Assembly: GCA_902622875.1 (NCBI GenBank)
Contig: CACNRW010000008.1
Location: 1 to 64,000, forward strand
Direction: 5' to 3'
DNA: 64,000 nt
DNA from: an uncultured SAR116 cluster alpha proteobacterium
GTDB taxonomy: Bacteria > Pseudomonadota > Alphaproteobacteria > Puniceispirillales > Marisalimonadaceae
In this document: positions 11,898 to 18,276 of the stretch, piece after piece
Layout of the letters: each line of letters starts with the position of its first letter
Numbering within the stretch: position 1 is the stretch's first letter
Notes under the pieces: generated by a model
Told to the model about the DNA's origin: nothing
Database searches by the model: none
The model's input: only the letters and a program-made list of their open reading frames with translations
Program-made: the position numbers and the translations under genes

Positions 11898-13187
11898 TTA
11901 TCTTGATCTTCGAATATTTGCACCAAGATCAGACAATTTGTTTTCTAAATTTTCGTACCCTCTATCCAAATGATATATACCATCTACTTCGCTTGTGCCC
12001 AATGCTACTAGACCACCTAAAATCAGACACATTGAAGCCCTTAAATCTGACGCCATTACCTTAGCTGCTTTTAGGTAATTAACACCTGTAACTGTTGCTA
12101 TTTGCTTGTTAACAGATATTCTTGCTCCCATTCTGATTAGTTCAGGTACATGCATGAATCTATTCTCAAATATATTTTCACTTATTTTACACTTGCCATC
12201 TGCTATTGTCATTAGTGTCATGTATTGTGCTTGAAGATCAGTAGGAAAACCTGGGTGTTCCTCTGTAAAAATATTATAGGGTATTGGTCTTTTAGAAGCA
12301 CAAATTTTTATTGCAGTTTTAGAAATTTCAACTTTACTACCTGTGTATTCTAGTGTTTTTAAAAACTTTTCTAAATTTTTTGGAATTATATTTTTTATTT
12401 CAATATCACCCATTGTTATACTAGCAGCGATTGCAAAAGACCCTGCTTCTATCCTATCTGCTACTACGTCATGTTGGAGCTTTTTCAATTTCTTTACTCC
12501 ATTTATAATAATTGTATTGCTCCCCTCACCCACAATATTTGCACCTGCTTTATTGAGGCAGGTCACAATATCAACAATTTCAGGTTCTTGAGCTGCATTG
12601 GAAATTATTGTTTGTCCTTTTGCTAGGACTGCAGTCATAATAGCGCTTTCTGTTGCTCCTACTGAAATTTTTGGAAAGTTTATTTTACCACCCCTCAAAC
12701 CTTCAGAAGGAACAGAACCAATTATAAAACCAGAGTCAAATTTTATATTAGCCCCTAATGCTTCCATAACCATTACATGCAAGTCAATTGGTCTGCTTCC
12801 AATTGCACAACCACCAGGAAGTGGAACTTTTGCAGAACCCTGCGAAGCTAGTAAAGGACCTAAAATAAGAATTGAAGCTCTCATTTGTCTTACTAGTTCA
12901 TATGAGGCTTCGTCCTTTTGAGCTACACCATTAAAATTAACTTGTCCATTATCCCAATTTGATTTTATGCCTAAATCGTCTAATAGTTTTAACATCAGCC
13001 TTGTGTCTGCAAGATCGGGAACGTTTGACAATCTAAAATCTTCATTAATGATAAGTGATAAAGCCATTAGAGGTAATGCCGCATTTTTAGCTCCACTTAT
13101 ATTAACATCCCCATAAAGTTTGTTGCCGCCAGTTATAAAAATTTTTTCATTAGAATTTTGATCAAAGTTATCCATATTAAAAATCAT
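11898..13187 (-). CDS. murA: UDP-N-acetylglucosamine 1-carboxyvinyltransferase MurA
   Basis: Transfers enolpyruvate from PEP to UDP-GlcNAc, the first committed step of peptidoglycan synthesis in the cytoplasm. The 429-residue protein has the early GGNKLYGDVNISGAKNAALP and the catalytic loop PLPGGCAIGSRPIDLH with the active-site cysteine (about residue 127), the fosfomycin target. EEHPGFPTDLQAQYM and DLRASMCLILGGL are also typical. Its ATG overlaps the stop of a small upstream ORF (TAATG). Confidence 0.96.
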   Translation of the reverse strand: MIFNMDNFDQNSNEKIFITGGNKLYGDVNISGAKNAALPLMALSLIINEDFRLSNVPDLADTRLMLKLLDDLGIKSNWDNGQVNFNGVAQKDEASYELVRQMRASILILGPLLASQGSAKVPLPGGCAIGSRPIDLHVMVMEALGANIKFDSGFIIGSVPSEGLRGGKINFPKISVGATESAIMTAVLAKGQTIISNAAQEPEIVDIVTCLNKAGANIVGEGSNTIIINGVKKLKKLQHDVVADRIEAGSFAIAASITMGDIEIKNIIPKNLEKFLKTLEYTGSKVEISKTAIKICASKRPIPYNIFTEEHPGFPTDLQAQYMTLMTIADGKCKISENIFENRFMHVPELIRMGARISVNKQIATVTGVNYLKAAKVMASDLRASMCLILGGLVALGTSEVDGIYHLDRGYENLENKLSDLGANIRRSR

Positions 13188-13463: not shown

Positions 13464-13539
13464 GCCGTCATAGCTCCAGCGGTAGAGCGCGTCATTGGTA
13501 ATGACGAGGTCACTGGTTCAAATCCAGTTGACGGCACCA
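13464..13539 (+). tRNA. tRNA-Thr (GGT)
   Basis: GCCGTCA at the 5' end pairs with TGACGGC, followed by A and an encoded CCA. The anticodon arm GTCATTGGTAATGAC carries anticodon GGT, and GGTTCAAATCC forms the T loop. It is intact. Its bases from the anticodon stem to the acceptor are repeated 2.3 kb downstream, so it appears to be the integration target of an island. Confidence 0.97.
13489..13534 (+). repeat. Left att-like direct repeat inside tRNA-Thr
   Basis: These 46 bases, from the anticodon stem to the acceptor, match 15796-15841 at 44 of 46 positions in the same orientation. The two differences are C/T in the T loop and A/G in the acceptor strand. The intact copy is the functional tRNA, as expected when an element integrates at a tRNA gene 3' half. 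Confidence 0.85.
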
Positions 13540-13630
13540 TTTTTTGGTTACTCTAAAACATATATATTCACTAACGATTTTAACAGTTTATAAATTCTTG
13601 TTAATATTCTATTTTTATTTATGAAATTTA

Positions 13631-13657
13631 TGTGTGTCAAATTTGTGTCATGACACC
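13631..13657. repeat. TGTGTCA repeat cluster, left end of the island
   Basis: GTGTGTCAAATTTGTGTCA is followed by TGACACC and TTAATAA. Two TGTGTCA words and one inverted TGACACC lie within 27 bases. The right end of the island has a related block (15674-15711: GTGTGTCAGAACTGTGACA, CACACCTCTTAATA). They could be recombinase arm sites or operators. Confidence 0.4.
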
Positions 13658-13668
13658 TTAATAATTTA

Positions 13669-15633
13669 TTACTTAAACTTTACTAGCACTCTGTCTTTAT
13701 CACCTTGTAGTTCAGGAGTTTGTGAGCCACTTGATTGTTGGACCACGTTCTGTTTTACATATGCGTGTAGCTCACGTGCAGTAATTTTATTGTCCGAGTT
13801 AGTATCTGCATCACCTTCCATACCCTTCATTAAGAAGTATGAGAACATTCCATGTTTGGCTTCTTCTAGTGGTTTGCTTGTCTGATCACCTGCTGCAGCT
13901 GAAAATACAGTAAAGTTCTCAGGTATAGATTGTTCAATAGCACGTATAGCTATCGGTCTTGATGCTATCAGCACATCTGTGCCACGAGTTGTGCCTGAGT
14001 AGCAGGTGTCTAGGAATACAGTCACGCTAAGTGGGTTAGATTGTTGTATCTCTTTGAATAGTTCATCCCTTAATAATGCTGTTTTGTCTAACAGTCTTGG
14101 TCTGCCATCATAAGGTAATAAGTACATATTCTTACCATCATCTGATGCTAAACCATGTCCTGCAAAGAAGATGTATATGTCACTTTTATTTGCTTTAGAT
14201 GCTCTTCTTAACCAATCCTTAGTTGTTAAAAGTATCTCAGCATACTCAGCTTTATCATTTAACAGTGTCTTTATTCTATTATCAGGAATACCTAGTTTTT
14301 CTGACGCATAATCTCTAAACATCTTTGCATCTCTATCAGCGTATAAAGCATCTGCATTGGTATTTTCATATCCTTCTACACCAACAATAAGTGCTAATGC
14401 ATTGGAGTTACCCTTTACCCTTTTACCAAGTGGGTTTAACCTATCAAAAGTTATTGATGTAGACACAGTGCTATCATTACGTTGAAGGGATACTGTTTTT
14501 GATGATGTTAACCCTGCAAGGTCAGTTACCTGAATATTTAAAGTAATACCATCTGATGGAACAAAAGTAGAATATTTGAAATTACCGTTGCCACTTAGTT
14601 GAACAGCTTTACCATCTATAGTTACCTCTGCCACTTCAACATTATCACGTGCAATACCAGTTATAGTTCCACGTTTTCCTTTTGTTTTATTAGATAATAT
14701 TTCTAATAATGGCACACGAGTATCAGTATCAATTCTTTGACGTTCTTGTTTCTGCTTAGCCTCCATTGCAGCTAATTTACGTTCTAGTTCAATACGCTTT
14801 TGTCTTTCAGTTTCTGCAACGCGTTTGGAAGCTTTCAGCTCAGCTGACGATGAAGTGGATTTAGAATTTTGATTTGAAACTAAAGATTTGTTTCTACCTT
14901 TTATATGACGAAGGAGTTGGGCAATAGAATAATCATTTGATTTAAATGTAAAACCACTACCCGTATATGTATTATTAATTTTTATAGCAAATATAAATTT
15001 GGTATTTTTTTTATTTTGTAATTCAATTTTCGTAAAATCATCTAACTTTAAAACTGCATATTTTTTTCCAATAAAATTTCTAAAAGATATATTTGTGTTT
15101 ACCCAATTTAAATCTTTTATTTTTGGGGGAGTTTTTGGATTCCAGTTAGTGGTGGCATAAAAAGAGTTACTAATTTCCTGTTTTGCTATATCAAGAAATT
15201 TTTTATGTTTGCCGTGATAAAAAATATAACCATTTTGTAAATTTATTTTTAGATGACTACCAGATTTAACATAAAAGTCTAAATTGGAAATATCATTGAA
15301 AATTTTTAATAATATATCAGAATTTTTTGTTGAGTTTATTTTTTTTGTTTTGGGGTATACTTCAGCATAAATACCCTCGTCACCAGTTAATTTTATACAT
15401 TTTTCACGTGTCACACCTCTTCTTTTTAACTCCTTAATTAAAAGATTTAGATTATTTCTGTATAAACTAGTTTTTCCTTGTCTAAGTTTTTTGTACTGAC
15501 ATAATTCAGCATCAGTACTTATTGAATTGTCCATTTGTACTAACAGTTGATTGTTTTTAATAACCTCTCCAACGGGTGTGCAACCTGCAAGAATTAGAAA
15601 AAAACCTACCATCATTTTAAATGCATTTTTCAT
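13669..15633 (-). CDS. Caspase-family (C14) lipoprotein with EF-hand-like loop
   Basis: Protein of 654 residues. A lipoprotein signal peptide ends LILAGC with the lipid cysteine at 18, so it is exported. A unique N-terminal region (about 20-265) precedes a charged coiled coil (VAETERQKRIELERKLAAME), an Ig-like beta segment (about 300-395) and a caspase domain. The catalytic dyad is intact: His493 in FFAGHG and Cys544 in DTCYSG. DTNSDNKITARE (610-621) fits an EF-hand calcium loop. The first third is very AT-rich while the caspase part is richer in G+C, suggesting a mosaic gene. The substrate is unknown; roles in stress, cell death or envelope proteolysis are inference. It is the only gene of its island. 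Confidence 0.85.
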   Translation of the reverse strand: MKNAFKMMVGFFLILAGCTPVGEVIKNNQLLVQMDNSISTDAELCQYKKLRQGKTSLYRNNLNLLIKELKRRGVTREKCIKLTGDEGIYAEVYPKTKKINSTKNSDILLKIFNDISNLDFYVKSGSHLKINLQNGYIFYHGKHKKFLDIAKQEISNSFYATTNWNPKTPPKIKDLNWVNTNISFRNFIGKKYAVLKLDDFTKIELQNKKNTKFIFAIKINNTYTGSGFTFKSNDYSIAQLLRHIKGRNKSLVSNQNSKSTSSSAELKASKRVAETERQKRIELERKLAAMEAKQKQERQRIDTDTRVPLLEILSNKTKGKRGTITGIARDNVEVAEVTIDGKAVQLSGNGNFKYSTFVPSDGITLNIQVTDLAGLTSSKTVSLQRNDSTVSTSITFDRLNPLGKRVKGNSNALALIVGVEGYENTNADALYADRDAKMFRDYASEKLGIPDNRIKTLLNDKAEYAEILLTTKDWLRRASKANKSDIYIFFAGHGLASDDGKNMYLLPYDGRPRLLDKTALLRDELFKEIQQSNPLSVTVFLDTCYSGTTRGTDVLIASRPIAIRAIEQSIPENFTVFSAAAGDQTSKPLEEAKHGMFSYFLMKGMEGDADTNSDNKITARELHAYVKQNVVQQSSGSQTPELQGDKDRVLVKFK

Positions 15634-15673
15634 ATGATCACATTAACAATTTAATAATTGCTTGTGAAGTATT

Positions 15674-15708
15674 AGGGGTGTGTCAGAACTGTGACAATTC
15701 ACACCTCT
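15674..15708. repeat. Inverted repeat upstream of the caspase gene
   Basis: AGGGGTGTG (15674-15682) can pair with CACACCTCT (15700-15708), nine pairs including one G-T. The loop contains a TGTCA/TGTGACA pair. It lies 40-75 bases before the caspase start codon, so it could be an operator or a recombinase site. Confidence 0.4.
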
Positions 15709-15763
15709 TAATATATTAAATACGACTCGAGATACACCTAATTGATTATAATAGTTTATTTGT
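15697..15763 (+). repeat. Island-associated repeat, tRNA-Thr copy
   Basis: Begins TCACACCTCTTAA (15699-15711), identical to the minus strand at 7186-7198 next to tRNA-Phe. Similarity continues with gaps: AATACGACTCGA, AATT, TATAATAG and ATTTGT. Two more AGGTGTAT words (15729 on the minus strand and about 15770 on the plus strand) lie between it and the partial tRNA copy. Confidence 0.5.
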
Positions 15764-15795
15764 GGGTGTTAATAGGTGTATGAAGTGTCATTTGG

Positions 15796-15841
15796 GCGTC
15801 ATTGGTAATGACGAGGTCACTGGTTTAAATCCAGTTGGCGG
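15796..15841 (+). repeat. Right att-like partial copy of tRNA-Thr
   Basis: Copy of the anticodon-to-acceptor part of tRNA-Thr (44 of 46 identical to 13489-13534). It lacks the 5' half, the full acceptor and the CCA, so it cannot be a functional tRNA. This marks the right boundary of the island; pheT ends 33 bases beyond it. Confidence 0.85.
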
Positions 15842-15873: not shown

Positions 15874-18276
15874 TTATTTAGATCTTAGATATCCTGATAA
15901 TTTTGTTTCAATCACGTTAATCAGATCCGAACTAATTTTTTCCAGGTCATCATCAGTTAAGGTTTCTAGATTTGGTTGAATAATTACTTTAATTGCAATT
16001 GATTTTTTACCATCCGGAATATTTTCACCTCTATAAACGTCAAAGATTAAAACGTCTTTAATTAAATCCTTATTAATCGATTTAGCTATTTGAACTAATT
16101 TTTCTGCGTTTGTTATTTCATCTAGTACAAATGCAAACTCTCTTGTAAGTGATTGTAAGGGCGATGTTTTTAACATAGGCTTTGAAATTTTGAATTTTTT
16201 GGGGATTGGTATATTCTCATAAAAGATTTCAAAAGCTACAATAGATTTTTCAAATCCGTAGAAATCTGTTATACTTGGGTGTATTTCACCAATATTTGCT
16301 ATCAGTTTTTGTCCTATTTTTAAGACTGCACTTCTTCCTGGATGGAAGTAACTGGGTGTGTTTTCATAAGTTTGTAGAGAATTTATATTTACACCAATAG
16401 CTTCTAGAGTTTTTAAAACGTCCAATTTTACATCATAAAAATCAAAGTTTTCTGAAGAATTTTTCCAATCTCTTTTAACTTTACTACCTAATCTTAAGCC
16501 TGATATGGTGTTTATCTGATCATCTGGTTTGTCACCTTTAAAAATTGGACCTGCCTCGAAGAAAGATAAAGTATCTATACCATTATTTAAATTTCTTTGT
16601 GCAGCTATTAATAATGTTGGAATAACTGAAGGTCTCATATGAGTTAATTCTGAAGAAATTGGATTTACTAAAACAAGCTCTTTGATACAACCATTAAATT
16701 GTTTTGACATCACCTCATTTAAAAAAGAAAAGGTTATAACTTCATTATAACCTCTATTAGCTAATATTTTTGAAGCAATGGATATTTGTCTATGTTTTAT
16801 ATTCATTGCAGGTTTTGCAATATAATTCTTTCTTGGTAATTTTATAGAAGGTATACAATCGTAACCATTAACTCTAATAATTTCTTCAACTATATCTGAA
16901 ACACCATCTATATCAGATCTCCATGCTGGAGGAATAATACTCCAGAAATCCTTTTTATTGGTTATTAAAAATCCTAACTTTTCCAAAATTGATCTGGCCT
17001 GCTTGTTTTCTATTTCAACACCGGTTAATTTATAAGTGTTATTAGGATTAAATATAATTGGTCTAGTTTCTTTCATTAATTCAAATTTAACTATTCTACT
17101 GTAAGTACCTCCACATATTTTACTCACCATAGACGCAGCATAGTGCATAACCAGATCTGGTGAATCATAATCTAATCCTCTTTCAAACCTATATCTGGCA
17201 TCGGAATTTATATTCAACTTCCTACCTGTATTTGCGATTGAGATAGGGTCAAATATTGCTGCTTCCAAAAACATTTTAGTAGTATTTTCTGTTACTCCAG
17301 TCCTTTCTCCACCCATAATCCCAGCTAAGTCATCGATACCGTAATCATCAGATATGACCAACATACCTTGATCTAATTCATATTCATTACCATTGAGTGC
17401 AAAAAACTTTTCACCTTGTTTTGATTCTTTAATTGTAAGTGTATTTCCAACTATTTTCTCTGCATCATAGGCGTGTAAAGGTCTGCCTATATCAATCATT
17501 ATATAATTAGTTATATCAACTAATGATGAGATAGGTCGTTGATCTACAGCTAATAAGCGTTTCTTTAGCCAAGATGGAGAATCTACATTAAGTAGGTTTT
17601 TAAAAGACCTACCAAATATTTTAGGACAAAGATTTTTTTTATCTTCATTTAAATCTATTTTCCAATCAATTATACTTTCAAAATCACCTTCGATTTCTAT
17701 AACTTCTAAATCTTTTAAAACACCCATCCCAGCAGCAGCTAAATCCCTGGCAATTCCTCTTACGCCTAGGCAATCGCCTCTGTTAGGAGTAATCTCTATT
17801 TCAATAATAGGGTCAGTTAAATCCATAATATCTATAATAGACAGTCCAATTTTAGAATTCTTTGGGAGTTCTATTATACCTTCATGATTATCAGATAATG
17901 TTAATTCTTTTTCTGAACATAGCATTCCCTCAGAAGTCTCACCCCTAATTTTAGTTTTTTTTAATATCAAATTTATGCCTGGAACATAAGTCTCAACCTT
18001 AGCAAAAACACCAATCATTCCAGTTTTTACATTATTTGCACCACAAACTACACTAAATGTATTTTTCCCATCAAACACTTTACATATGTTTAGTTTATCA
18101 GCATTTGGATGCTTTTTTATCTCTAGTACTTTCACAGAGATAAATTCCTTGAGTTTTTCAGCTAGATTGATAACCGAAGAGACCTCCAAGCCTAGTTTAG
18201 GTAAAGTCTCTACTATATCATTTAAATTTTTGTCTGTTTGAAGATGGTCAAGTAACCAATACCATGTAAATTTCAT
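15874..18276 (-). CDS. pheT: Phenylalanyl-tRNA synthetase beta subunit
   Basis: Protein of 800 residues, full length. An N-terminal tRNA-binding OB fold (VLEIKKHPNADKLNICKV) precedes the B5 and B3/B4 editing domains (TPNRGDCLGVRGIARDLAA) and a C-terminal ferredoxin-like anticodon-binding domain (SPLQSLTREFAFV). With PheS it charges tRNA-Phe as an alpha2-beta2 tetramer. Its ATG overlaps the pheS stop by four bases. Confidence 0.96.
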   Translation of the reverse strand: MKFTWYWLLDHLQTDKNLNDIVETLPKLGLEVSSVINLAEKLKEFISVKVLEIKKHPNADKLNICKVFDGKNTFSVVCGANNVKTGMIGVFAKVETYVPGINLILKKTKIRGETSEGMLCSEKELTLSDNHEGIIELPKNSKIGLSIIDIMDLTDPIIEIEITPNRGDCLGVRGIARDLAAAGMGVLKDLEVIEIEGDFESIIDWKIDLNEDKKNLCPKIFGRSFKNLLNVDSPSWLKKRLLAVDQRPISSLVDITNYIMIDIGRPLHAYDAEKIVGNTLTIKESKQGEKFFALNGNEYELDQGMLVISDDYGIDDLAGIMGGERTGVTENTTKMFLEAAIFDPISIANTGRKLNINSDARYRFERGLDYDSPDLVMHYAASMVSKICGGTYSRIVKFELMKETRPIIFNPNNTYKLTGVEIENKQARSILEKLGFLITNKKDFWSIIPPAWRSDIDGVSDIVEEIIRVNGYDCIPSIKLPRKNYIAKPAMNIKHRQISIASKILANRGYNEVITFSFLNEVMSKQFNGCIKELVLVNPISSELTHMRPSVIPTLLIAAQRNLNNGIDTLSFFEAGPIFKGDKPDDQINTISGLRLGSKVKRDWKNSSENFDFYDVKLDVLKTLEAIGVNINSLQTYENTPSYFHPGRSAVLKIGQKLIANIGEIHPSITDFYGFEKSIVAFEIFYENIPIPKKFKISKPMLKTSPLQSLTREFAFVLDEITNAEKLVQIAKSINKDLIKDVLIFDVYRGENIPDGKKSIAIKVIIQPNLETLTDDDLEKISSDLINVIETKLSGYLRSK

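Follow-up and report, generated by a model that had tools for sequence, protein, structure and literature searches.

A 2.3-kb interval beside the tRNA-Thr gene of an uncultured SAR116 cluster alphaproteobacterium is probably an integrated element of the tRNA-targeting, tyrosine-integrase type that carries no integrase, has kept its attachment sites and holds exchangeable cargo, in the manner of a cis-mobilizable element (CIME). The repeat that frames the interval is genuine and goes well beyond chance, and the island resembles a minimal mobile slot more than it does a fixed gene. New here is a slot bounded by tRNA sequence that has no integrase and retains its ends through changes of cargo; CIMEs and integrase-less islands are already known. 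Islands without an integrase are commonly taken for wreckage, whereas here the ends are kept and the cargo is replaced across species. The setting is that of streamlined ocean bacteria, in which gene exchange is poorly explained. Should such ends still undergo recombination in trans, searches that rely on an integrase gene to recognize islands would overlook a whole class of small units of gene exchange, and the conserved island ends offer a direct handle for finding more of them.

Structure and occupancy of the tRNA-Thr site

The window, that is, the whole stretch of 64,000 nucleotides that we analyzed, contains an intact tRNA-Thr(GGT) gene at positions 13464-13539 on the forward strand (ARAGORN call tRNA-Thr(ggt)). 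A sequence-only reading of the window had reported that the 3' half of this gene is repeated downstream, and repeat comparison confirmed it: the left attachment copy (13489-13534, forward strand) recurs in direct orientation as a partial tRNA-Thr, the right attachment copy, at 15796-15841 on the same strand, with 44 of 46 bases identical. A 34-base pattern of the repeat core, allowing up to three mismatches, matched the window's genome (1.96 Mb in 76 contigs, ~81% complete) only at these two positions; thus, the core is not a dispersed repeat. As the same reading had stated, the ~2.3 kb between the copies contain a caspase-like gene and no integrase. The ORF list and Pfam agree on this, with the sole long ORF (13669-15633, reverse strand) being intact and encoding a caspase-like (Peptidase_C14) putative lipoprotein of 654 aa.

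Just inside the left copy lies a 17-bp putative arm-type motif, GTGTCAAATTTGTGTCA (13634-13650, forward strand), a direct repeat of the form GTGTCA-N5-GTGTCA that is identical in all five islands described below. A diverged copy of the motif, GTGTCAGAACTGTGACA, is found toward the right end (15680-15696, forward strand), together with an inner-end block, ATTGATTATAATAGTTTATTTGTGGGTGTTA (15741-15771, forward strand), which at up to three mismatches picks out exactly the five island genomes among 64. The left neighbor (11898-13187, reverse strand), a conserved flank of the site, is presumably murA, as judged from its sequence. The right neighbor (15874-18276, reverse strand) directly follows the tRNA in genomes with an empty site; we take it to be pheT, as the sequence-only reading named it.

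We scanned the 3'-half pattern of tRNA-Thr over 61 genomes, and over 40 genomes of the genus (SAR116 cluster). The site was located in 28 of the 40, being empty in 23 and occupied in 5, while the other 12 of these fragmentary genomes gave no match and are uninformative on occupancy. At the empty sites, pheT starts ~8-28 bp after tRNA-Thr in 22 of 23 cases (~133 bp in G061), and murA lies on the opposite side in 20, with its position falling off the contig in the remaining 3. This junction was where the sequence-only reading had proposed to look among relatives, and the 23 empty sites are contrary to the outcome that it named as fatal to its interpretation, a feature fixed throughout the clade with no empty sites.

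Two tRNA-Thr copies, spaced 2273-2500 bp apart, are present in the window's genome (G000), G013, G034, and G035. The fifth island, in G022, is split between contigs, its left part ending C24 and its right part starting C5; as its interior could not be joined, statements on its cargo cover the assembled part only. No located site in the 40 genomes held a tRNA-Thr copy beyond two. All five islands fall within one close clade, formed by the seven closest genomes (G000, G013, G022, G032, G034, G035, and G062), in which G032 and G062 have empty sites. The partial tRNA copy is unchanged in G013, G034, and G035, has 2 of 46 bases changed in the window, and is decayed in G022.

Cargo and inner ends of the five islands

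The window's cargo protein matched Pfam Peptidase_C14 at 3.3e-18 and the PADLOC caspase model at 8.6e-7, while its match to the NCBIfam model for EACC1-associated caspases fell below that model's cut-off. It had no match in PHROGs at E 0.1 and none among solved structures. The His in FFAGHG and the Cys in LDTCYSG presumably form the usual caspase pair, and we read LAGC at residue 15 as a putative lipobox. Caspase-like genes are a multicopy family in these genomes, with matches in 22 of 61 and up to eight per genome, fragments included; the C-terminal half is common to them, the N-terminal parts differ, and leftover 3' ends also occur. The window's genome has further members at C3:48298, C22:18210-21056, and C27:575. 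We considered whether C-terminal scraps of caspase genes could be element ends, and inspected seven short matches in context. We rejected the idea: three sit at contig ends (G005:C64, G017:C37, and G005:C49), and the other four resemble leftover 3' ends of the caspase gene that could not be tied to attachment sites.

The related islands carry other genes. Those of G013, G034, and G035 encode a TRAP receptor, which in G034 matches Pfam DctP at 3.5e-44, along with a wHTH-like protein of 160-185 aa. In G022, as far as it is assembled, the island encodes a wHTH-like protein of 159 aa and has an 88-aa ORF that matched no family. The caspase gene is missing from the islands of G013, G034, and G035 and from the assembled part of that of G022, and no tyrosine recombinase is present in the window's island or in those of G013, G034, and G035, the G022 interior being incomplete. 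Since the related islands carry other genes, the window's island does not represent a single element pared down to the caspase gene; its cargo has been exchanged. We favor neither of the two origins offered by the sequence-only reading, an element reduced to one cargo gene or a satellite moved by a recombinase encoded elsewhere. No cognate recombinase was identified among the integrase loci described below. We do not call the wHTH-like gene MarR, as its Pfam MarR_2 match lies below the cut-off. In G035, the wHTH-like ORF (L070 3215-3772) terminates in a stretch that repeats part of the adjacent pheT product.

Despite the differing cargo, the inner ends of all five islands align. In the left motif, 17 of 17 columns are invariant versus 44 of 139 other left-end columns (Fisher p 2.5e-8), and in the right block 25 of 31 columns are invariant versus 55 of 174 others (p 3.7e-7), p values that are only a guide because alignment columns are not independent. 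Outside the motif, left ends are 49-85% identical in pairwise comparison. The right motif copy is less conserved than the left, with 12 of 17 columns invariant. That the left motif is so constrained suggests that a recombinase uses it today or did so until recently.

For the wHTH-like gene, third-codon identity between species is 85-93%, whereas the same pairs have 79-82% in pheT and 72-75% in hisD; at the protein level, its 86-93% is not clearly higher than the 87-90% of pheT. Its spread thus appears to postdate the divergence of the species. The dctP genes of G013 and G034 share 87.6% of third-codon positions, while that of G035 shares 67-69% with either, no closer than core genes. The G035 island is a mosaic, with a left end closest to those of G000 and G022 (77-79%) and a dctP in common with G013 and G034.

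When G022 was compared with its two empty sisters, the murA side was 93-98% identical and the first 1.2 kb of pheT 86-91%, although the sisters are 94-95% identical to each other in that tract. As the pheT flank is diverged and the murA flank is not, the island and the adjoining pheT tract appear to have been gained, or lost by the sisters, as one; this suggests homologous recombination for at least one such event. Homologous exchange is thus supported for some events, and we treat it and recombinase use as two routes of one element type. In G013 and G035 (L254 and L255), murA and its neighbor gene are strongly diverged (59-72% protein identity to the window); the tract ends near tRNA-Thr, the genes beyond are normal, and the pattern amounts to allele replacement of ~2 kb. 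We discarded the idea that these two genomes received pheT with the island, as their pheT is normal for the clade and the replaced part is murA and the next gene.

The motif at other loci and candidate helper integrases

The exact 17-mer occurs in 5 of 61 genomes, which are the five with tRNA-Thr islands. With up to one mismatch, there were 46 matches in 25 of the 61 genomes and none for a reversed control. We inspected 25 of the 41 other matches, three of which came from other genera of the order. As classified from ORF lists and a reading of the DNA, 16 lay on the integrase side, where six had an intact tyrosine integrase of 326-328 aa that starts 17-18 bp after the motif, six had a broken one, three had other content, and one was cut off by a contig end. 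The remaining nine lay on the far side, eight adjoining a partial tRNA-Arg and one without a recognizable copy.

A one-base variant of the motif is found at the ends of tRNA-Arg islands of this genus, ~70 bp past the tRNA and 17-18 bp ahead of a 327-aa tyrosine integrase (Pfam). This position relative to integrases suggests that the motif acts like an integrase arm-type site. In several tRNA-Arg islands, the integrase is broken or missing and the motif is retained. One such island, in G015, spans 1.9 kb and has both motifs and a tRNA piece that is 98.5% identical; its integrase, recognizable by eye from the first codons only, has given way to three small genes. The earlier description of the tRNA-Thr interval as the footprint of a site-specific element is borne out by the 23 empty versus 5 occupied sites, by ends shared whatever the cargo, and by this near-identical motif at integrase-bearing tRNA-Arg islands.

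The tRNA-Arg islands (L152 6062-8065 in G015, L149, L153, and others) are ~5-7 kb long and consist of the arm motif, a 327-aa integrase, and cargo; some adjoin further units, and the series extends from intact islands to ones without an integrase. Upstream of the intact tRNA-Arg gene, L148 (5001-5034, 91%) and L159 (3838-3871, 82%) have copies of its 5' half, as if another element had entered from the opposite side.

Among viral contigs, seven contain the exact 17-mer and two the variant. In three of these nine (L271, L272, and L277), no more than 50 bp separate the motif from a Pfam-positive integrase, and in others it sits within coding sequence. Given the three contigs with the motif beside integrases, GTGTCA-N5-GTGTCA may be a widespread arm-type signature. 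As the viral contigs yielded no exact match for the tRNA-Thr core and no match for the right-end block, we rejected them as a source of the island.

To look for a helper, we read 72 integrase loci selected from the matches listed, with at least a dozen listed matches falling outside this set. A tRNA gene was present at 53 (Arg 20, Ser 12, Gly 12, Val 6, Leu 2, and Pro 1), none of them tRNA-Thr, and the other 19 showed no tRNA; no integrase-bearing relative at tRNA-Thr was found for comparison. The sequence-only reading had suggested a search for a tyrosine recombinase in the rest of the genome. Five PF00589 matches are indeed present, all on contigs other than the window's, and we take three of them to be other than XerC/XerD: two are found at tRNA-Arg and tRNA-Gly, respectively, and the third lies on contig C22, where no tRNA was visible. 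The motif is absent from the 260 bp before the start of each of the three.

We hold a tRNA-Arg integrase to be an unlikely helper. The motif has opposite orientations relative to the tRNA in Thr and Arg islands, so the two are probably served by different integrases. Homologous 318-aa integrases at tRNA-Val in G035, G063, and G014 are separated from the tRNA by a stretch that includes the motif with one mismatch, oriented as in the window, and the T arm of tRNA-Val is much like that of tRNA-Thr. They count as a lead since G035 is itself an island genome, and they are weak candidates. A relaxed motif (one mismatch in 12 fixed bases) gave 10 matches in 333 kb of integrase-locus DNA versus five for the reversed control, near chance level and thus weak evidence. 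At three loci with a 316-aa integrase (L209, L213, and L217), the tRNA-Val that precedes it is missing the usual 3' portion of the acceptor stem and breaks off at the T arm, as if split by an element without restoration.

Origin of the island and relation to known elements

A model that would accommodate these data is that the island retains both attachment sites, each consisting of a tRNA 3' half with an arm-type motif just inside the end. The space between would serve as a cargo slot that has been refilled, with a caspase-like gene, with TRAP receptor and wHTH-like genes, or with a wHTH-like gene and the 88-aa ORF. The motif would bind an integrase, and its invariance would mean that the ends are present or recent substrates of a recombinase acting in trans. 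Homologous recombination through the shared ends, the tRNA, and pheT would be a further route by which cargo and island pass between closely related species. The part of this model that we infer from the ends is movement through a recombinase acting in trans; the diverged pheT flank in G022 can be explained without any recombinase, and the divergence of G035 dctP, with only the G013-G034 pair closer than core genes, argues against recent spread of whole islands.

These same observations make it a real possibility that the island is a dead remnant, whose integrase was lost in the ancestor of the close clade and whose cargo was afterwards swapped, or the island removed, by homologous recombination only. 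Such a history fits the confinement of all five islands to one clade of seven genomes, the diverged pheT tract, the mosaic structure and core-like dctP divergence of G035, and the changes in the partial tRNA copies of G022 and the window. However, neutral decay would not be expected to leave the left motif identical in five of five islands amid ends that vary as widely as these do, and three partial tRNA copies are unchanged. Those three copies, the constraint on left motif and right block, and the integrase-less versions at tRNA-Arg would instead fit a satellite whose cassettes are moved by the recombinase of a phage or other element, as MITEs are by a transposase from elsewhere. The tRNA-Val integrases would be its weak candidate for a helper, but the relaxed motif exceeded its control only 10 to 5, none of the 72 loci from the matches listed offered a helper at tRNA-Thr, and the viral contigs gave no exact match for the tRNA-Thr core and none for the right-end block. 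We regard active mobilization of this kind as conceivable, and hold it tentatively. The window taken alone would also allow a local duplication of the tRNA 3' half that captured a gene without any mobile element. The same ends framing other genes in four other species contradict this, as do the 23 empty sites, and we consider it very improbable.

The reading that we prefer, an integrase-less element with kept ends and exchangeable cargo, could be extended to a whole family of cassettes defined by their attachment sites alone and comparable, among tyrosine-integrase elements, to MITEs or integron cassettes. Each would consist of two arm-motif ends with a tRNA half and a 2-kb slot for one or two adaptive genes, carried between SAR116 species by integrases acting in trans, with a parallel process at tRNA-Arg. 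We think this extension rather unlikely.

Phage satellites (PICI, PICMI, and their kin) encode an integrase together with packaging or capsid-hijacking genes. The window's island, with one cargo gene and no PHROG match at E 0.1, does not share these features. In titles and abstract beginnings of the open-access literature, we found no description of such an island in SAR116.

In anatomy, the island matches the published definition of CIMEs, which have neither integration nor transfer genes and retain attL and attR (PMC5704250). It appears to retain both sites, as a 44/46 repeat with conserved inner ends, and has one long, caspase-like ORF and no genes for integration or transfer. However, CIMEs are described as ICEs or IMEs that have decayed and are moved through accretion with another element sharing their site, whereas no second element was seen at the tRNA-Thr sites located, and the main feature here is the change of cargo between kept ends. 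We therefore describe it as resembling a CIME that stays in circulation.

Other systems also bear comparison. Tycheposons likewise have a tRNA boundary and occur in small aquatic genomes, but are described with a tyrosine recombinase and lengths of 4-200 kb (PMC10872708), whereas the SAR116 island has no such recombinase and measures 2.3 kb. Islands at tRNA or tmRNA genes that have an integrase but no transfer genes are alike in their site, direct repeats, and lack of transfer genes; they differ in encoding their own integrase, which in jumbo-phage-transduced tmRNA islands is required for excision (PMC12595487), while the SAR116 island encodes none. MITEs and CALINs (PMC11389934) are alike only if the enzyme comes from elsewhere, an analogy only, as their enzymes and ends are different. 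In Dehalococcoides, 15 islands bounded by ssrA repeats likewise have no integration module (PMC3146451), but these are arrayed in tandem with islands that do have the module, all sharing a tmRNA gene as their site, and involve a serine recombinase.
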